DNA of 64,000 nucleotides, from contig NZ_FNOR01000021.1 of assembly GCF_900107095.1 (NCBI RefSeq), positions 1-64,000 on the forward strand. The letters run 5' to 3'. This DNA comes from Collimonas sp. OK242. GTDB taxonomy: Bacteria; Pseudomonadota; Gammaproteobacteria; Burkholderiales; Burkholderiaceae_D. Position numbers and translations under genes: made by a program. Below are positions 55,282 to 63,654 of the stretch, piece by piece (the stretch's first letter is position 1; each line of letters starts with the position of its first letter). Under the pieces are notes generated by a model. It saw nothing but the letters and a program-made list of their open reading frames with translations, made no database searches and was not told where the DNA came from.

Positions 55282-55319
55282 AAAAATAGCGCTGGCTTTA
55301 CCGCCAGCGCTATTTTTTT
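55282..55319. terminator. Bidirectional terminator after sodB
   Basis: AAAAATAGCGCTGGC, loop TTTACC, GCCAGCGCTATTTTTTT; T-runs on both strands. It lies between convergent sodB and the TetR gene. Confidence 0.9.
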
Positions 55320-55962
55320 ATCCGCGCCTCGAATTTTCTTGAACCTGCTCCGGTCTGGCGATCGCCCGCCACAGCATTTTGAACAGTGCATTCGCCTGCA
55401 GCGCCAGCGGCTCCTTTTCGCCGCGCATCGTATGCATATGCACCAGCCTTTCCAGGATGCCGATGAAATAATCCAGCAGGATTTTTTCATCCACTTCATC
55501 AGTCAACACGCCTTGCGCACGGCCGTCGGTCAAGGTCTTCATCAATACTTCCATCATTTCCGGTTGCCGGAAAGTGCGGTCGCGCCCCCATGCGCTGATC
55601 TGCAGCGAACTCATGATGAGCTGGCTTACCTTGGGATTACGGTCAAAAAAATCCAGCACGACCCAGAACACCTTGCGCAATTTGTCCTGGCAACTCTCGA
55701 TGCCCTGCAAGTGATCGAGCATGCGCGAAGCCAGCGTGCCCAGCCAGGCTTCCAGACAGGCAAACAGCAGCGCCTCCTTGCTGCCGTAGTATTTATAAAT
55801 TGTCTGCAGGGAGACGCCGGCGGCGCTGGCGATCTCACCGAAACTGACGCTATGGAATCCGCGTTCTGAAAACAAATCCAGCACTGCGCTCTCTATCCTC
55901 TGCCTGATCAGAGGCTTGAGCAAGGCGCGGTCCAGTACGATTTTCTGTTTTTCCGATGGCAT
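55318..55962 (-). CDS. TetR family transcriptional regulator of the beta-oxidation locus
   Basis: 214 residues. The N-terminal helix-turn-helix spans about 18-62 (IRQRIESAVLDLFSERGFHSVSFGEIASAAGVSLQTIYKYYGSKEALL). The C-terminal ligand-binding part is helical. Divergent from the thiolase gene with a 201-bp intergenic region bearing two GTAAT-N4-ATTAC palindromes; two more lie ahead of the acyl-CoA dehydrogenase operon. Inferred to repress both arms and itself until an acyl-CoA-type ligand binds. Related in role to PsrA/FadR-type TetR regulators. Confidence 0.88.
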   Translation of the reverse strand: MPSEKQKIVLDRALLKPLIRQRIESAVLDLFSERGFHSVSFGEIASAAGVSLQTIYKYYGSKEALLFACLEAWLGTLASRMLDHLQGIESCQDKLRKVFWVVLDFFDRNPKVSQLIMSSLQISAWGRDRTFRQPEMMEVLMKTLTDGRAQGVLTDEVDEKILLDYFIGILERLVHMHTMRGEKEPLALQANALFKMLWRAIARPEQVQENSRRG

Positions 55963-55988: not shown

Positions 55989-56002
55989 GTAATTATTATT
56001 AC
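55989..56002. promoter_or_regulatory. GTAAT-N4-ATTAC palindrome, site 1 (TetR gene side)
   Basis: GTAATTATTATTAC, 27 bp upstream of the TetR start. Positioned for autoregulation. Confidence 0.6.
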
Positions 56003-56050
56003 GTCTTTGACGCACGCAATTCAGCGCGCCGGTTTAGAGTGAATTACCAA

Positions 56051-56079
56051 TTGACGCTGGCCATTGCCTTCACTAAAGT
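56051..56079 (+). promoter_or_regulatory. Candidate promoter for the thiolase-fadB operon
   Basis: TTGACG (56051-56056), 17-bp spacer, TAAAGT (56074-56079). Transcription would begin near 56086, upstream of palindrome site 2. Confidence 0.4.
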
Positions 56080-56125
56080 GGGTGTTCAGCACGAGTCGGA
56101 CGCCAAGCGAGACATCAAGCAAAGT

Positions 56126-56139
56126 GTAATTTCAATTAC
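56126..56139. promoter_or_regulatory. GTAAT-N4-ATTAC palindrome, site 2 (thiolase side)
   Basis: GTAATTTCAATTAC with 6-bp perfect arms, 25 bp before the thiolase ATG. Confidence 0.6.
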
Positions 56140-56163
56140 CAGAACATACAAGCCGGAGACGCT

Positions 56164-57369
56164 ATGACTGAAGCCTATATTTTCGATTCCGTACGAACCC
56201 CGCGCGGCAAGGGCAAGAAAGACGGCCGCCTGCATCAGGTAACGCCGGTCAATTTGCTGGCCCAGTTGCTGCAAGCGCTGGAACAACGCAACCGCCTTGA
56301 TACCTCGCAGGTCGACGACGTGGTACTCGGCTGCGTGACGCCGCTCGGCGAGCAAGGCGCGGACATCGCCCGCACCGCAGTGCTGTATGCCGGCTGGGAC
56401 CAGTCGGTGCCGGGAGTGACGCAATCGCGGTTTTGCGCCTCGGGCCTGGAATCTGTCAACCTGGCGGCGATGAAAGTCATGTCTGGCCAGGAACAGCTGG
56501 TGGTGGCTGGCGGCGTTGAAAGCATGTCGCGCTGGGCCATGGGCTCGGATGGCGGGGCCTGGTTCATGGATCCGCGGGTCAACCAGATCACCGGCTTTGC
56601 GCCGCAAGGCATAGGCGCCGACCTGATCGCGACGCTGGAAAACTTCTCACGCAGCGACGTCGATAATTTTGCGCTGCAATCGCAACAGAACGCTGCGCGC
56701 GCCCGCGCCGAAGGCCGTTTCAACAAATCCCTGATTGCAGTCAGGGACCTGAATGGCATGGTGATACTGGATCATGACGAATACATCCGCGCCCAAACCA
56801 CGATAGAGAACCTGGCGGCGCTGAATCCGGCCTTCGAGCAAATCGGCCAGATGGGCTTCGATGCGACGGCGCTGCGTAAATACACTACTGTCGAAAAGAT
56901 CAACCATGTCCATCATGCCGGGAATTCCTCCGGCATCGTCGATGGCGCCGCGCTGGTATTGGTCGGCAGCAAAGAAATGGGCCAGAAACTGGGATTGAAA
57001 CCGCGTGCCAGGATCGTCGCCGCCGCCGTCACCGGCTCGGAGCCGACCATCATGCTGACCGGCATCGCCCCCGCCGCACGCAAAGCGCTGGCCAAGGCCA
57101 AGATGGCGGCGCAGGATATCGACCTGTTTGAAATCAATGAAGCGTTTGCCGCAGTTGTCATGCGCGCCGTCCGCGATCTCGATATCGACCCGGGCCGGGT
57201 CAACGTCAACGGCGGCTCCATCGCCATGGGGCATCCGCTGGGTGCGACCGGCGCCATGATTCTCGGCACCGCGCTGGACGAGCTGGAACGCAGCGGCAAG
57301 GCGACGGCCTTGATCTCGCTGTGCGTCGGCGGCGGCATGGGTATCGCCACCATCATCGAACGAATTTGA
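56164..57369 (+). CDS. Acetyl-CoA C-acyltransferase (thiolase)
   Basis: 401 residues. Catalytic Cys in [18 protein letters not shown] (about residue 91), [11 protein letters not shown], His in [15 protein letters not shown], and the second Cys in [11 protein letters not shown] near the C-terminus. It cleaves 3-ketoacyl-CoA in beta-oxidation. GGAGA is 4 nt before the ATG. It is followed by repeat copy 3 and then a FadB-like multienzyme; together they resemble a fadAB pair in reversed order. Confidence 0.94.
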
Positions 57370-57372
57370 TCA

Positions 57373-57430
57373 TTGAGGGCAAGAGTTTAAGAGCCGCCGC
57401 AGCGTGGCGGATTACCCTGCCCCCGACACC
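57373..57430. repeat. REP-like palindromic repeat, copy 3 (inverted)
   Basis: TTGAGGGCAAGAGTTTAAGA followed by GCCGCCGCAGCGTGGCGG; inverse orientation relative to copies 1 and 2. It sits between thiolase and FadB genes within an operon. Confidence 0.7.
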
Positions 57431-57445
57431 TTAGAAAGCCAGATC

Positions 57446-59578
57446 ATGAGTGTAAATTTCCAAAAAGATGCGGACAATATCGTCACCTTGACCCTCGACA
57501 TGCCCGGGCGTTCGATGAATGTCTTGAACGAGGCGCTGACCGCGCCGTTCATGGCAGCGATTGCCAATATCGAAGCCGATCCCGCCATCGCCGGCGTCAT
57601 CATCACCTCGGGCAAGGCGGATTTCGTCGCCGGCGCCGACATTGAAAAACTGTTTCAAATCACCGAAGCGCAAGCCGCTTTCGATCTGGCGCAGGAATTC
57701 AAAGGCTTGCTGCGGCGCCTGGAACTGTGCGGCCGGCCGGTAGTGGCTGCACTCAACGGCACCGCACTGGGCGGTGGACTGGAGCTGGCGTTGGCCTGCC
57801 ATTACCGCATCGCCATCGACAATCCGAAAGCCAAATTCGGCCTGCCCGAAGTCAAGCTCGGCCTGCTGCCAGGAGGCGGCGGCACGCAGCGCTTGCCACG
57901 CATGATCGGCATCCAGAGCGCATTGCAGCTGATGCTGGAAGGCAAGGAGCTACGCGCCGAAGAAGCGCTGCAACAAGGAATCGTGCAAGAGCTGGCAAGC
58001 GACAGGGAAGATCTGCTGGCAAGAGCCAAAGCCTGGTGCCTCGCCAACCCCAAGGCAAAGCAACCATGGGACGACAAGAAATTCCGCTGGCCGGGCGGCG
58101 ACTCGAGAAGCCCGGGCAACGGCCAGCTGTGGGCGATCGCGCCCTCGATGGCAAGCGCCAAGACCCATGGTAACTATCCGGCAGCCACCAACATCATGAG
58201 CTGCGTATTCGAAGGCGGCATTGTCGATTTCGATACCGGCTGCGAAATCGAATCGCGCTACTTCGTCAACTGCGCCTTGTCGCCGGTCGCGAAGAACATG
58301 ATCGGTACGCTGTGGTTCCAGCTCAACGCCATCAACAAGGGCAAGTCGCGGCCGCAAGGCATTGCTCCATCCAAAGTCCGTAAGGTCGGGATACTTGGCG
58401 CCGGGATGATGGGCGCCGGCATTGCCTACGCCTCGGCCAAGGCAGGCATAGAAGTGGTGCTGCTGGATAACAGCATGGCAACCGCGGAAAGCGGCAAGGA
58501 CTACTCCGGCAAACTGCTCGACAAGGCGATCCGGCGCAAGCAGCAAACTGCGGAAGGCAAGGAAACTTTGCTGAACCGTATCAGGCCGACCGTGGATTTC
58601 AACGATCTGGCAAGCTGCGATCTGATTATCGAGGCCGTCTTTGAAGATCGCCAGGTCAAGGCAGAGGTCACCCGGAAAACCGAGGCGTTGATCAGTCCAG
58701 ACGCGGTGTTCGCATCGAATACCTCAACCTTGCCGATCACCGGCCTGGCGCAAGCCAGCGTGCGGCCGGAAAACTTCATCGGCCTGCATTTCTTTTCACC
58801 GGTAGACAAGATGCCGCTGGTTGAAATCATCATCGGCCAGCATACCAGCCCGCAAACGCTGGCGCGTGGTTTCGACTATGTGCAGCAGATCAAGAAAACC
58901 CCGATCGTGGTCAACGATTCGCGCGGCTTTTACACCTCGCGGGTATTTGGCACTTACGTGATGGAAGGCTTGAAACTGCTGATGGAAGGCCAGCATCCGC
59001 GCGCGATCGAAATGGCCGGCCTGCAGGCCGGCATGCCGGTTGGCCCGCTGGCGGTGCATGACGAAGTCAGCCTGTCCTTGTCGCTCCACATCCTGGAACA
59101 GACCCGCAAGGATTTCGCCGCGGCTGGCCAGACTTTTGCCGGCCATCCGGCCGATCCCGGGCTGGAAAAAATGGTGAAGCAACTAGACCGTAAAGGGAAG
59201 AAAGCCGGCAAGGGGTTTTATGATTACCCCGAGAATGCAAGCAAGCATCTGTGGCCCGGTTTGCAGCAGGCCTTTCCGCTCGCTGCAACACAGTTGCCGC
59301 AAAAGGATTTGATTGAGCGCATGATGTTTGTGCAAGCCAACGAAGCGGCCAAATGCTATGAGGAAAAGGTGGTGATGACTGTCGCCGACACCAATATCGG
59401 CAGCATTTTCGGCTGGGGCTTTGCGCCGTTTCAAGGCGGCGCACTGCAATACATCAATGCCTATGGCGTCGCCAATTTTGTCAAACGGGCGCATCAGCTC
59501 TCGGCGCAATTCGGCAGCTATTTCGCGCCGGCGGCAATATTGGTGAAAATGGCGGAACAAGGCAAGCACTTTGAATGA
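57446..59578 (+). CDS. FadB/FadJ-like multienzyme: enoyl-CoA hydratase and 3-hydroxyacyl-CoA dehydrogenase
   Basis: 710 residues from MSVNFQKDADNIVTLTLDMP; the frame is open 42 bp upstream inside the repeat. Hydratase domain at about 1-190 with oxyanion GGGLELALACHYRIA and PEVKLGLLPGGGGTQRLPR carrying a catalytic Glu. The NAD domain begins near 311 (VGILGAGMMGAGIAYASAKAG), then HFFSPVDKMPLVEII and the C-terminal dehydrogenase domains. It performs hydration and oxidation of enoyl-CoA to 3-ketoacyl-CoA. Confidence 0.95.
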   Translation: MSVNFQKDADNIVTLTLDMPGRSMNVLNEALTAPFMAAIANIEADPAIAGVIITSGKADFVAGADIEKLFQITEAQAAFDLAQEFKGLLRRLELCGRPVVAALNGTALGGGLELALACHYRIAIDNPKAKFGLPEVKLGLLPGGGGTQRLPRMIGIQSALQLMLEGKELRAEEALQQGIVQELASDREDLLARAKAWCLANPKAKQPWDDKKFRWPGGDSRSPGNGQLWAIAPSMASAKTHGNYPAATNIMSCVFEGGIVDFDTGCEIESRYFVNCALSPVAKNMIGTLWFQLNAINKGKSRPQGIAPSKVRKVGILGAGMMGAGIAYASAKAGIEVVLLDNSMATAESGKDYSGKLLDKAIRRKQQTAEGKETLLNRIRPTVDFNDLASCDLIIEAVFEDRQVKAEVTRKTEALISPDAVFASNTSTLPITGLAQASVRPENFIGLHFFSPVDKMPLVEIIIGQHTSPQTLARGFDYVQQIKKTPIVVNDSRGFYTSRVFGTYVMEGLKLLMEGQHPRAIEMAGLQAGMPVGPLAVHDEVSLSLSLHILEQTRKDFAAAGQTFAGHPADPGLEKMVKQLDRKGKKAGKGFYDYPENASKHLWPGLQQAFPLAATQLPQKDLIERMMFVQANEAAKCYEEKVVMTVADTNIGSIFGWGFAPFQGGALQYINAYGVANFVKRAHQLSAQFGSYFAPAAILVKMAEQGKHFE

Positions 59579-59623
59579 CATGATGCGGCTCTTCATCGAC
59601 GCCGATGAAGGACCGCAGGTAAT

Positions 59624-59941
59624 TCAGGCAATCTTGCTGGCGTCAAACAAAGTAGGAATCCGCTGGGCGAGCATCATGTCGCCCTTCAGTTTCAGCTTGC
59701 CGCTCATGAACGCCATGGCACCGTTCAGCTCCCCCTTCAGCATCGCCTTCAAATCCTCATCCGCCATCGTCAGCGCTACGTCTGCAGTATCGAGCACGCC
59801 TTCATGCGCGGTGCATGTTCCGTGATCGATCAGCAGGTACATCGGGTTAGCAATATCGAATTGTATGCTTTTTTCCATATCCGCCGCGGCGACCGTATTC
59901 AAGCCGGACGGCATGAGTTTGATGATGTCGTTGACTGTCAT
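59624..59941 (-). CDS. SCP2 sterol-carrier domain protein
   Basis: 105-residue single-domain SCP2 protein (IQFDIANPMYLLIDHGTCTAHEG; DVALTMADEDLKAMLKGELNGAMAFMSGKLKLKGDMMLAQRIP), a lipid/acyl-CoA-binding fold. In eukaryotes such a domain is part of MFE-2 and of SCPx thiolase. It is the last gene of the minus-strand arm of the locus, convergent with FadB. Confidence 0.93.
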   Translation of the reverse strand: MTVNDIIKLMPSGLNTVAAADMEKSIQFDIANPMYLLIDHGTCTAHEGVLDTADVALTMADEDLKAMLKGELNGAMAFMSGKLKLKGDMMLAQRIPTLFDASKIA

Positions 59942-59973
59942 TTCATTTCCTCTGGTTAATTAAAAAATCTGTT

Positions 59974-61122
59974 TCAAATCGCACCACTGGCGGACAATGC
60001 CGCCAAGGCGGCTTCATCCAATCCCAGCTCTGCCAGCACGTTGTAGGTATCCGCTCCCAATGCCGGGCAGTCGCCGCTGCCGGCGCCAAGTGCATCGCTG
60101 AACTTGATCGGCAAATCCGATAAGGGCTTGCCGTCTTCCATCCGGATCAGGCCGCGCGCCTTGACTTGCGGATTGTCCAGCGCCTCCTGCGGCGTATAAA
60201 TGCCTGACACGCAGCAGTCGCGGTCCGCCAGCAGCAGCTCCCATTCATCGCGCGAGCGGGTCTTGAACAATTCGCTCAGAGCCGTCCTCAGGGTTGCGCC
60301 TGCCGGTCCCGGCACCAATGGCATGGCGGCCAGGTCGAGGCGGCCGACCGCGTTACAGAAATTGAGGAAGAATTTGGGTTCCAATGCCGCCATTGCGACG
60401 TGTTTCCCATCGGCGCAGGCGTAGATGCTGTAGTTGGCCAGGCCGCCGCTCAACATGTCGTTGCCGCGCGCCCTGCCCTCGCCCAACGTGCGGATAGTGG
60501 CCAGCGATAAGGTCTGTAGCGCCAGCGTGCCGTCAAGCATGCCGACGTCGACCATGGTGCCCTGCCCCGAGGCACGCGCGCCAATCACTGCCGCCAGAAT
60601 GCCGAGGGCGCAGGTCAAGGCGCCGCCGGCCAGGTCCGCGCTTTGGAAATTCGACAGCACCGGCGCGCCGTCGGCAGCGCCGGTTTGATCCAGCAAACCG
60701 GCATACCCGCAGTAGTTCATGTCGTGCCCGGCCCTGTCTTTATAAGGGCCGGTCTGCCCATAACCGGTCAGCGCAGCGTAGACCAGGCGCGGGTTGAGCA
60801 GCTTCAAGCCTGGATAACCGCACCCCAGTTTATCCATCACGCCGGGCCGGAACGATTCGATCAGGACGTCGGCCTGGGCCGCCATCTTTTTAAGAATCGC
60901 GACAGCCTCCGGCTGCCGCAGATCCAAGGTGACCGATTGCTTGCCGCGATTGAGCAGAGTGAATAATTCCGGCGCCAGCATGCGGGCGTAATCACCGCCT
61001 TGCGGCTCTTCCAGCTTGATGACCTCGGCTCCCAGTTGCGCCAGGTAAAAACTGCAAAAGGGGCCAGGCAGCAAACGGGTCAGATCAAGCACCCGGATGC
61101 CGGACAAAAGCGGATTAGCCAT
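59974..61122 (-). CDS. Alpha-methylacyl-CoA racemase-like CoA-transferase family III protein
   Basis: 382 residues of the CaiB/BaiF family. The AMACR-type sequence AGHDMNYCGYAGLL carries the catalytic His, ADLAGGALTCALGIL the Asp and ALEPKFFLNF the conserved Glu of racemases of this fold, suggesting epimerisation at C2 of 2-methylacyl-CoA rather than CoA transfer. The N-terminus PLLSGIRVLDLTRLLPGPF is standard. Spaced 6 bp from the SDR gene. Confidence 0.88.
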   Translation of the reverse strand: MANPLLSGIRVLDLTRLLPGPFCSFYLAQLGAEVIKLEEPQGGDYARMLAPELFTLLNRGKQSVTLDLRQPEAVAILKKMAAQADVLIESFRPGVMDKLGCGYPGLKLLNPRLVYAALTGYGQTGPYKDRAGHDMNYCGYAGLLDQTGAADGAPVLSNFQSADLAGGALTCALGILAAVIGARASGQGTMVDVGMLDGTLALQTLSLATIRTLGEGRARGNDMLSGGLANYSIYACADGKHVAMAALEPKFFLNFCNAVGRLDLAAMPLVPGPAGATLRTALSELFKTRSRDEWELLLADRDCCVSGIYTPQEALDNPQVKARGLIRMEDGKPLSDLPIKFSDALGAGSGDCPALGADTYNVLAELGLDEAALAALSASGAI

Positions 61123-61128
61123 TGTGGA

Positions 61129-62049
61129 TCAGGGCTTACCTTGACCGAATGGCGAGCCTGCACCCTGCACGATAGACATCAACGACTCGCCTATGTTCCT
61201 GGGATAGGTGACGTCATCGAAATCGCAGATCTGTTGCCATCTCTCTGCCACCTCTTCGGGGCCGAAGGCCTGTCCCTGGAAGTGCTGGCCTTGCGTACGC
61301 TGCCAGCGCAGCTTGGCATGGAAACCGGCGCCGACCTCGAACAAGCTGCCGTTCTCCTTGCAGCTTGCGTGACATAGATACGCCGCCAGCGGCGCGACAT
61401 ACTCAGGCTTGAGCGCTTCCAGCATTTGCGGCGGCATCACCGTTTCCGAGATACGCGAACCGGCCAGCGGTGCAATCGTGTTGACCAGCACGTTTTTGGC
61501 GGCGCCTTCAATCGCCAGCGTATTCGCCATGCCGATCAAACCCATCTTCGCCATGCTGTAGTTGGCTTGACCGAAATTGCCGTAGATCCCTGCCGCCGAG
61601 GTGGTCATGACGATGCGGCCGAAGCCTTTGTTGCGCATATGCGGCCACGCGGCATGGGTGACGCGGAAAGCGCCGAGCACGTGAATCCGATAGATCAGAT
61701 CCCAGTCGTCCTCTGTCATCTTGGCAAAACTGCTGTCGCGCAAAATGCCGGCATTGTTGATCACGATGTCGATGCCGCCAAAATGATCGAGGGCGGTCTG
61801 CACGATCCGGGCGCCGTCTTCCACCGAATCGTAGTTGGCAACCGCGATGCCGCCGGCCGCCTTGATCTCTGCCACCACCTGATCGGCAGCCGCACTGGAC
61901 TTGCCGCCGCCATGGACGTCGCCGCCCAGGTCATTCACCACCACCTTGGCGCCGCGCGCTCCCAACAGCAAAGCGTGTACCCGTCCCAAGCCGTTGCCGG
62001 CGCCGGTGATAATCGCCACGCGACCGTCGTAACGCAATTCGTTTTGCAT
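61129..62049 (-). CDS. SDR-family 3-hydroxyacyl-CoA dehydrogenase-like (MFE-2 N-domain type)
   Basis: 306 residues. NAD-binding [15 protein letters not shown] and [25 protein letters not shown], the latter pattern typical of the (3R)-hydroxyacyl-CoA dehydrogenase part of peroxisomal MFE-2/HSD17B4. Catalytic Ser-Tyr-Lys in [22 protein letters not shown]. In the operon it stands between the acyl-CoA dehydrogenase and racemase genes. (3R) specificity is an inference from this resemblance. Confidence 0.9.
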
Positions 62050-62112
62050 AGCTATGTCTTTATTTATTGAGATATTTATATATTAATTTATTGAAAATCG
62101 AAAAACCGGGAT

Positions 62113-63252
62113 TCATATTGACCGAGAAATAATCTCTTTCATGATTTCATTGGTGCCGCCATAAATGCGCTGGGCACGGGCATCGACATAAGCGCGCGCG
62201 ATAGGATATTCTTGCATGAAACCGTAACCGCCATGCAATTGCAGGCACTGGTCCAGCACTTTCCCCTGCAAGTCGGAGCACCAATATTTGGCGGCGGCGG
62301 CGGCATCGACCCGCAACTCGCCCGCGACTTCCAGCTCGATGCAACGATCGACGAACACACGGGCGATCTGCAATTCGGTTTTCATCTCGGCCAGCTTGAA
62401 GCGCGTGTTCTGAAACGACGACACGGAACGGCCGAAGGCCTGCCTGTCGCGCGTGTACTCGATAGTTGCAGTGAGCATCGCTTCGGCGTTGGCCACCGAC
62501 GTGATCGCAATCAGCAAGCGCTCCCAAGCCAGCTCCTGCATCAGCATGCTGAAACCGGCGCCGACCTGGCCAACGATATTGCTCTTCGGGACCCGCACAT
62601 TCTCAAAGAACAGCTCACAGGTATCCTGGGCTTTCATGCCGATCTTCTTCAAGGGCTTGCCTTTGCTGAAACCGGGCCGGTCGGCTTCGATCACCAGCAA
62701 CGACACATTCTTGGCGCCGCGGGCCTTGTCGCCGACCTTGACCGCCACCACCACCATGTCGCTGTTATAGCCGTTGGTAATGAATATCTTGGAGCCGTTG
62801 ACGATGTAGTCGTCGCCATCTTCCAGCGCCGTGGTTTGTATCGCCTGCAAATCCGATCCGGTGCCGGGTTCAGTCATCGCGATCGCCGTGATCGCCGTGC
62901 CGGCGGCCATCTTCGGCAACCAGGTTTGCTTCAATTCTTCGCTGCCGTAGCGCAGCAGGTAAGGCGCCACGATGTCGGAATGCAGCGGCCAGCCGATGCC
63001 CGAGGCGTTGCTGCTGGCCAGTTCTTCCAGCACGATGGTGCTGAACTTGCGGTCGACACCGGAGCCGCCGTAGTTTTCCGGCATATTGGTGCACAGGAAG
63101 CCCAGTTCGCCGGCGCGCCGCCAGATATCGCGATCGACAAAACCCTGCTCTTCCCAACCGGCGTGGCGCGGCAACACCTCGGCCTGCAGAAAGCGCCGCA
63201 GGCTTTGGCGAAACTCTTCGTGGTCTGAATTGAATAACTGACGCGGGATCAT
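62113..63252 (-). CDS. Acyl-CoA dehydrogenase
   Basis: 379 residues, FAD-dependent; introduces the 2,3 double bond of acyl-CoA. The start ATG at 63252 has GGAG 6 nt upstream and overlaps the stop of a 29-codon ORF (ATGA). Motifs MTEPGTGSDLQAI, KIFITNGYNSD and the closing IYGGTNEIMKEI. Where many members have the base as YEGT, this has YGGT. The Glu of LAWERLL (helix G) is at the position used by isovaleryl- and long-chain-type enzymes, suggesting a branched or long substrate. Confidence 0.93.
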   Translation of the reverse strand: MIPRQLFNSDHEEFRQSLRRFLQAEVLPRHAGWEEQGFVDRDIWRRAGELGFLCTNMPENYGGSGVDRKFSTIVLEELASSNASGIGWPLHSDIVAPYLLRYGSEELKQTWLPKMAAGTAITAIAMTEPGTGSDLQAIQTTALEDGDDYIVNGSKIFITNGYNSDMVVVAVKVGDKARGAKNVSLLVIEADRPGFSKGKPLKKIGMKAQDTCELFFENVRVPKSNIVGQVGAGFSMLMQELAWERLLIAITSVANAEAMLTATIEYTRDRQAFGRSVSSFQNTRFKLAEMKTELQIARVFVDRCIELEVAGELRVDAAAAAKYWCSDLQGKVLDQCLQLHGGYGFMQEYPIARAYVDARAQRIYGGTNEIMKEIISRSI

Positions 63253-63338
63253 GCGCAGCTCCGGCAAACGGCGGCATGGCCGCAGATGAGCTTGCCGGCG
63301 GTGCGGCAGATAAGCGCACAGGCAGTCGCTTGGTTCAT
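63249..63338 (-). CDS. Candidate 29-residue Cys-rich small protein
   Basis: ATG with AGGAGA 4 nt upstream (better than that of the downstream gene), and a TGA that overlaps the acyl-CoA dehydrogenase ATG. Cysteines are at positions 7, 11, 19, 25 and 28 with a His at 21 (ends CGHAAVCRSCA). It begins just after the operator-promoter of the operon. It may be a translated leader coupling initiation, or a small metal- or thiol-binding protein. No homologue recognised. Confidence 0.5.
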   Translation of the reverse strand: MNQATACALICRTAGKLICGHAAVCRSCA

Positions 63339-63362
63339 GGTGTCTCCTGATATTCTTATTGT

Positions 63363-63376
63363 GTAATTTAATTTAC
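63363..63376. promoter_or_regulatory. GTAAT-type palindrome, site 3 (overlaps the -10 of the acyl-CoA dehydrogenase operon)
   Basis: GTAATTTAATTTAC, one mismatch in the right arm but with outer GTGTAA/TTACAC arms perfect (63361-63378). It covers the predicted -10 hexamer of the minus-strand promoter. Confidence 0.6.
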
Positions 63377-63398
63377 ACTTACATCGATTCCAAGTCAA
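63370..63398 (-). promoter_or_regulatory. Promoter of the acyl-CoA dehydrogenase operon
   Basis: On the minus strand TTGACT (63398-63393), a 17-bp spacer, TAAATT (63375-63370), about 32 bp before the 29-codon ORF. Confidence 0.6.
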
Positions 63399-63474
63399 AA
63401 ATAAGCTGGAAATAGGGTATTTGAGAATACACCGGTTTTCAATATGAAAGCTAGAGACCTGTCTCGAACTAAAG

Positions 63475-63488
63475 GTAATTTTTATTAC
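63475..63488. promoter_or_regulatory. GTAAT-N4-ATTAC palindrome, site 4
   Basis: GTAATTTTTATTAC, perfect 5-bp arms, about 77 bp upstream of the -35 of the acyl-CoA dehydrogenase operon. Confidence 0.6.
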
Positions 63489-63636: not shown

Positions 63637-63654
63637 CTGTCACGCGGTCGTCAC
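63637..63654 (+). promoter_or_regulatory. Pho box upstream of ugpB
   Basis: CTGTCAC-GCGG-TCGTCAC: two 7-bp direct repeats spaced by 4 bp as in the PhoB consensus CTGTCAT-N4-CTGTCAT. A -10-like TACCAT (63665-63670) follows after 10 bp, the usual layout in which the Pho box replaces the -35. Confidence 0.65.

Follow-up and report, generated by a model that had tools for sequence, protein, structure and literature searches.

Control of fatty-acid degradation by regulators of the TetR family is described for FadR (YsiA) of Bacillus, for FadP of the Burkholderiales and for PsrA of Pseudomonas, and these are the systems with which a locus of Collimonas sp. OK242 is compared here. The window, that is the whole stretch of 64,000 nucleotides that was analysed, carries a tetR gene beside genes for beta-oxidation and four palindromic sites, S1 to S4, in two control regions, one between tetR and a thiolase gene and one before an acyl-CoA dehydrogenase operon (Table 1). 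S1 to S4 are very probably the operators of the adjacent FadR-like TetR repressor, which would control thiolase-fadB, the dehydrogenase operon and tetR itself and be released by acyl-CoA.

Bacillus FadR resembles the window TetR in its family, as its best structural match, in the TetR_C_4 domain and, by the titles of the PDB entries, in the control of fatty-acid degradation. The two differ in sequence, with about 20% identity and a score of 59 bits for the window protein, below the cut-off of 200 of the equivalog model NF053878. The operator consensus of Bacillus FadR also differs from the operator of the window.

FadP is said to have been described by Kazakov et al. in 2009. In two papers it is a TetR-family regulator of fatty-acid degradation in Burkholderiales, located by a beta-oxidation operon (PMC5343134, PMC12543098); the second proposes that most Burkholderiales have it and gives it 12 operons in Ralstonia solanacearum (PMC12543098). 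The window TetR likewise adjoins a beta-oxidation operon and belongs to the same bacterial order. Unlike FadP, it has an orthologue in only 3 of 399 sampled Burkholderiales genomes (E<=1e-40), two of them Collimonas, and its predicted targets are two operons and itself. This distribution is too narrow for FadP as described, and on that comparison identity with it was rejected.

PsrA of Pseudomonas, also of the TetR family, likewise regulates fatty-acid degradation and has a palindromic operator. Its site is published as C/GAAACN2-4GTTTG/C (PMC13104628), whereas the window sites are GTAAYN4RTTAC-like, so that the initial annotation rightly set the motif apart from the PsrA-type consensus. Identity with PsrA was rejected on this difference and on a score of 36.6 bits against the NCBIfam cut-off of 300 (a Vibrio-named model). 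Among the literature matches listed, which for several searches are the first few of many and do not extend to subscription papers, no published description of the motif or the protein was found, and the absence is therefore weak evidence. Several tetR genes given by accession in a Collimonas pratensis paper (PMC12542777) could not be matched to the window tetR.

The sites in the genome and the genus

All four palindromes of the initial annotation were recovered, three as exact matches to GTAATN4ATTAC and S3 with one mismatch, and each carries GT before GTAAT or AC after TTAC on at least one side. The predicted operator consensus is GTAAY-N4-RTTAC with the core GTAA-N6-TTAC and, in Collimonas, flanking GT/AC. 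In the 4.98-Mb genome the extended pattern GTGTAATN5TTAC has exactly four occurrences, S1 to S4, so that in this form the motif is not frequent at other places. The exact 14-mer GTAATN4ATTAC is found six times, at S1, S2 and S4 and at three places (L004-L006) which, together with two looser matches (L077, L078), are not counted as targets because they lie inside open reading frames (ORFs) assigned by a simple rule based on GC3. With up to two mismatches, the 14-mer shows mild enrichment in the window (20 matches, where shuffles average 11 and 1 of 100 reaches this count).

The tetR gene is encoded in 14 of the 15 genomes of the genus, with 91-96% identity of TetR in named Collimonas records. 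GTGTAATN5TTAC has 58 matches in the 15 genomes, of which 56 are the locus sites of the 14 genomes that bear the TetR, four apiece, and two are strays (G001:C82, G007:C24); the reversed control gave 28 matches. The genome lacking TetR (G011) has no match to this pattern, and all four sites are absent from it. This genome, 99% complete at 1.7 Mb and placed in the same genus, is probably a reduced lineage. Comparison of the same intergenic regions in relatives, as the initial annotation had suggested, shows the motif kept in these control regions together with tetR, in all 14 TetR-bearing Collimonas genomes and at loci beyond the genus. Neither this comparison nor the genome-wide scan, both proposed in the initial annotation, refuted its reading.

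Sites beyond Collimonas

Scanning contigs with the window TetR gave 47 loci: seven from Collimonas, one from an Oxalobacteraceae metagenome-assembled genome (MAG) at 73% identity, a distant one from Pleionea (L076, 27%), and the rest at 46-63%, mostly from Nevskia, Solimonas, Sinimarinibacterium, Panacagrimonas and relatives. A thiolase gene is present at 37 of the loci, only an acyl-CoA dehydrogenase-like gene at seven, and neither at three in the available DNA. Relatives of the TetR mostly stand beside thiolase-fadB, and outside Collimonas these proteins share 74-88% (thiolase) and 63-80% (FadB) identity with those of the window.

L076 was left out of the upstream counts. GTAA-N6-TTAC lies within 340 bp upstream of tetR at 41 of the remaining 46 loci, with 78 sites in 15.7 kb upstream of tetR against 18 in 834 kb outside; the control pattern AATGN6CATT gave 0 and 3, respectively. 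Fourteen of the 18 outside sites belong to the Collimonas dehydrogenase pairs and two to a thiolase pair in L058, one (L052) comes after a tetR start call that is probably set too far upstream and before the conserved start, and one (L067) is unexplained. A class-wide search, with a TetR match in 4 of 369 genomes, that of the window included, added five more distant homologues at 49-57% (L164-L168) that have one core site apiece upstream, and L164 and L166-L168 adjoin other beta-oxidation genes. L167 and L168 are second TetR homologues in their genomes (G593 and G700), each with its own GTAA-N6-TTAC upstream; the former is near thiolase- and short-chain dehydrogenase/reductase (SDR)-like genes and the latter near a FadB-like gene.

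These counts bear on whether some other protein, either a global factor or a paralogue of the TetR, binds the sites while the adjacent TetR is there by coincidence. Besides this TetR, the genome has 11 TetR-like matches at E<=1e-3, and binding of this TetR to the sites is itself a prediction; the best paralogue match, however, covers only 69 residues at 38%, and from genome to genome the sites go together with this TetR, also where the homologue adjoins other genes of beta-oxidation. We regard a different regulator as highly improbable.

Paired sites and the predicted regulon

By their positions the predicted operators come as pairs that bracket a conserved promoter, which refines the earlier picture of four sites. 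The candidate thiolase promoter between S1 and S2 is kept as TTGACG-17-TA(A/C)AGT, with a -10 of TAAAGT or TACAGT, in eight aligned Collimonas sequences. Between S3 and S4, 13 of 14 aligned genomes keep a -35 of TTGAAA or TTGACA, and the -10, 17 bp away, varies around (T/C/A)ACC; in the window this promoter falls under the threshold of the scanner. S2 and S3 would lie some 37-47 bp past the presumed transcription starts, as calculated from the coordinates. The initial annotation had placed S3 over the -10 of the dehydrogenase promoter. A promoter of this kind, TTGACT-17-TAAATT, does exist under S3 in the window, but it is the less conserved of the two candidates, its -35 being poorly kept in the genus.

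S4 might also serve the divergent ugpB-like gene as an operator, but the UgpB ISWWH motif is 280-308 bp off in 14 of 14 genomes, and a role as upstream member of the dehydrogenase pair accounts for S4 better. Before the ugpB-like gene, the sequence at 63637-63654 (+) has, read by eye, what we take to be a likeness to a Pho box, and this would suggest that the gene is under phosphate rather than fatty-acid control.

All 14 TetR-bearing Collimonas genomes have 98-99 bp between S3 and S4, over DNA that is 71% identical on average. The corresponding gap between S1 and S2 varies between 107 and 124 bp, over DNA with 76% identity. Two or more cores are present in 34 of the 37 intervals between thiolase and tetR, one of which (L058) spans 3.3 kb and holds two pairs. 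Pairs of GTAA-N6-TTAC cores with a start spacing of 84-114 or 115-145 bp were further sought in 37 non-Collimonas genomes that bear the TetR. The shorter spacing gave eight places in eight genomes and the longer five places in four genomes, and the reversed control gave no match. Five of these 13 places are at tetR and eight directly before an acyl-CoA dehydrogenase gene; since the search used the motif and not the identity of the genes, it tests the regulon independently. One of the eight (L196), in the Oxalobacteraceae MAG, precedes a counterpart of the window dehydrogenase (82% identity) followed by a racemase-like gene (84% over 74 residues), on a contig other than the one bearing the tetR of that MAG. 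A noisier search for single GTAAYN4ATTAC sites in 12 genomes gave 17 places away from tetR, 11 of which were inspected; two are before an acyl-CoA dehydrogenase gene, one is just ahead of a gene for an AMP-binding acyl-CoA synthetase (L143) and one is near an SDR gene.

Several observations weigh against the proposed regulon. Seven of the 11 inspected single-site places have no evident link to fatty acids, and the other 29 of the 37 genomes have no exact dehydrogenase pair at the 84-145 bp spacing. At five of the 46 loci no exact GTAA-N6-TTAC precedes tetR; two of them (L057, L070) each have one GTAATN4ATTAC site with one mismatch, and the three Hydrocarboniphaga loci (L071, L072, L073) have no upstream site within two mismatches. 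A Burkholderiales homologue with 47% identity (L163) has no GTAA-N6-TTAC upstream. The Hydrocarboniphaga homologues retain the recognition helix despite the lack of a recognisable upstream operator. For a reading of the sites as chance palindromes in AT-rich intergenic DNA speaks that the 14-mer by itself, when one mismatch is allowed, is not rare, with 66 matches in the genome against 50 for the reversed control. Against chance, the sites are kept in 14 of 14 genomes though pairwise identity between S3 and S4 drops to 49%, and the multiple cores of the thiolase-tetR intervals and the empty control of the pair search add to this; the genome-wide and cross-species counts rule chance out, and we give it practically no weight.

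The claim in the initial annotation that the TetR controls both arms and itself gains support from the position of the sites, their co-occurrence with the TetR and the dehydrogenase pairs in 8 of 37 genomes, and it is the site positions that point to autoregulation as well as to control of both arms. What the sequence comparison shows is the sites, their pairing and conservation, their co-occurrence with the TetR and the identity of the targets.

It is rather unlikely, in our judgement, that each pair acts as one unit in which two TetR dimers cooperate across the promoter through a DNA loop or a bridged complex. The near-fixed gap between S3 and S4 and the recurrence of dehydrogenase pairs in other genomes would fit such an arrangement, the spacing at dehydrogenase promoters being about 97-119 bp. 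Helical phasing of the spacings is weak, however: the fraction of jittered sets at or above the observed value was 0.009 (40 values), it became 0.05 to 0.70 after thinning of related genomes, and phasing was discarded as not robust. The fixed promoter between the sites could alone hold the S3-S4 spacing, and cooperation of this kind is, to our knowledge, unusual in the TetR family.

The TetR protein and its likely effector

Membership of the TetR family is evident from the helix-turn-helix domain TetR_N (PF00440; 54.3 bits against a cut-off of 24), from a nearly all-helical AlphaFold2 model (pLDDT 87) and from top structural matches that are TetR-family regulators. TetR_C_4 (YsiA-like) scores 23.5 bits, above its cut-off. 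The best structural matches are FadR of B. subtilis and of B. halodurans (Z 20.7 and 20.6, 187-188 residues aligned), that of B. subtilis including a complex with stearoyl-CoA, and a profile search of PDB sequences gave the same best relatives. Because these nearest solved relatives are Bacillus FadR, an acyl-CoA is the likely inducer as judged from the model.

The same regulator and operators might instead respond to a branched, dicarboxylic or short-chain acyl-CoA or to a free fatty acid. The set of long-chain acyl-CoA dehydrogenase (LCAD)-like, racemase-like, (3R)-dehydrogenase and SCP2 genes in the dehydrogenase operon resembles one used for 2-methyl-branched acyl chains, and the fold does not reveal ligand specificity; the nearest folds, one of them solved with stearoyl-CoA, speak for a long-chain ligand. 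Such an alternative effector is a real possibility, though we lean away from it.

Binding, repression and induction by acyl-CoA are what we infer from the above for the preferred reading, in which the adjacent TetR would be released by long-chain acyl-CoA. When fatty acids are absent, repressor dimers would occupy both members of each pair, S1 and S4 upstream of the promoter and S2 and S3 within the leader, immediately ahead of the first gene. Occupied sites would block thiolase-fadB and the operon of acyl-CoA dehydrogenase, (3R)-dehydrogenase, racemase and SCP2, and occupancy of S1 would also block tetR itself. Imported fatty acid would be converted to long-chain acyl-CoA, which would enter the C-terminal pocket and release the repressor.

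Features of the locus

Table 1. Sites, candidate promoters and genes of the predicted regulon in the window.
Feature	Position	Strand	Description and basis
tetR	55318..55962	-	TetR-family regulator, 214 aa, FadR(Bacillus)-like fold; Pfam, model, structure matches
S1	55989..56002	none	GTAATTATTATTAC; exact GTAATN4ATTAC; 26 bp before tetR start codon; upstream half of S1/S2
Candidate thiolase promoter	56051..56079	+	TTGACG-17-TAAAGT, between S1 and S2; promoter scan
S2	56126..56139	none	GTAATTTCAATTAC; exact GTAATN4ATTAC; 24 bp before thiolase start codon
Acetyl-CoA acyltransferase (thiolase)	56164..57369	+	NCBIfam PRK08242, 678 bits, cut-off 514
FadB/FadJ-like enoyl-CoA hydratase / hydroxyacyl-CoA dehydrogenase	57446..59578	+	Pfam ECH_1, 3HCDH_N, 3HCDH
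SCP2 lipid-carrier domain protein	59624..59941	-	Last gene of operon; Pfam SCP2; PDB sterol carrier protein 2
CoA-transferase family III, alpha-methylacyl-CoA racemase-like	59974..61122	-	Pfam CoA_transf_3; PDB racemase 5e-61
SDR, (3R)-hydroxyacyl-CoA dehydrogenase	61129..62049	-	Peroxisomal multifunctional-enzyme-2 type; PDB 2et6 (8e-160), 17-beta-HSD type 4
Acyl-CoA dehydrogenase, long-chain (LCAD)-like	62113..63252	-	Pfam; PDB long-chain acyl-CoA dehydrogenase 5e-121
Possible 29-aa leader ORF	63249..63338	-	Cys-rich; own GGAG ribosome site; stop overlaps dehydrogenase start (ATGA)
S3	63363..63376	none	GTAATTTAATTTAC; one mismatch to GTAATN4ATTAC; 24 bp before first start codon of operon
Candidate acyl-CoA dehydrogenase promoter	63414..63442	-	TTGAAA-17-TACCCT, between S3 and S4
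S4	63475..63488	none	GTAATTTTTATTAC; exact GTAATN4ATTAC; upstream half of S3/S4

The start codon of the FadB/FadJ-like gene is inferred, its ORF being open from 57404. The possible leader ORF, of 17-29 codons, is found in seven of 14 Collimonas genomes, and the other seven begin the dehydrogenase directly at that ribosome site. A C. fungivorans MAG has a gene for an AMP-binding acyl-CoA synthetase (L033:4341-5993, +) between its racemase-like and SCP2 genes that is absent from the operon of the window. Between sodB and tetR, a strong inverted repeat with runs of A and T was read by eye at 55283-55318; it is probably a bidirectional terminator.

Origin and significance

A close thiolase is found in 6 of 300 Burkholderiales genomes, two of them Collimonas. 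The Collimonas thiolase shares 74-82% identity with non-Burkholderiales loci, 88% with the Oxalobacteraceae MAG and 66-75% with the four other Burkholderiales copies. Together with the rarity of the TetR in the order, these values suggest that the thiolase-fadB-tetR module was likely transferred horizontally between Nevskia/Solimonas-type bacteria and Collimonas with its near kin. In the literature that could be searched, no description of beta-oxidation control was found for Collimonas or for Nevskia/Solimonas-type bacteria.

For Collimonas and for Nevskia/Solimonas-type gammaproteobacteria, the present analysis identifies a likely fatty-acid regulator together with its operator and core targets. 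What emerges looks like a real control circuit of a familiar type, since the same repressor and the same paired sites are found together again in distant bacteria. Both the operator and the trans-targets are predictions open to direct test, and the module might find use as a biosensor for acyl-CoA.

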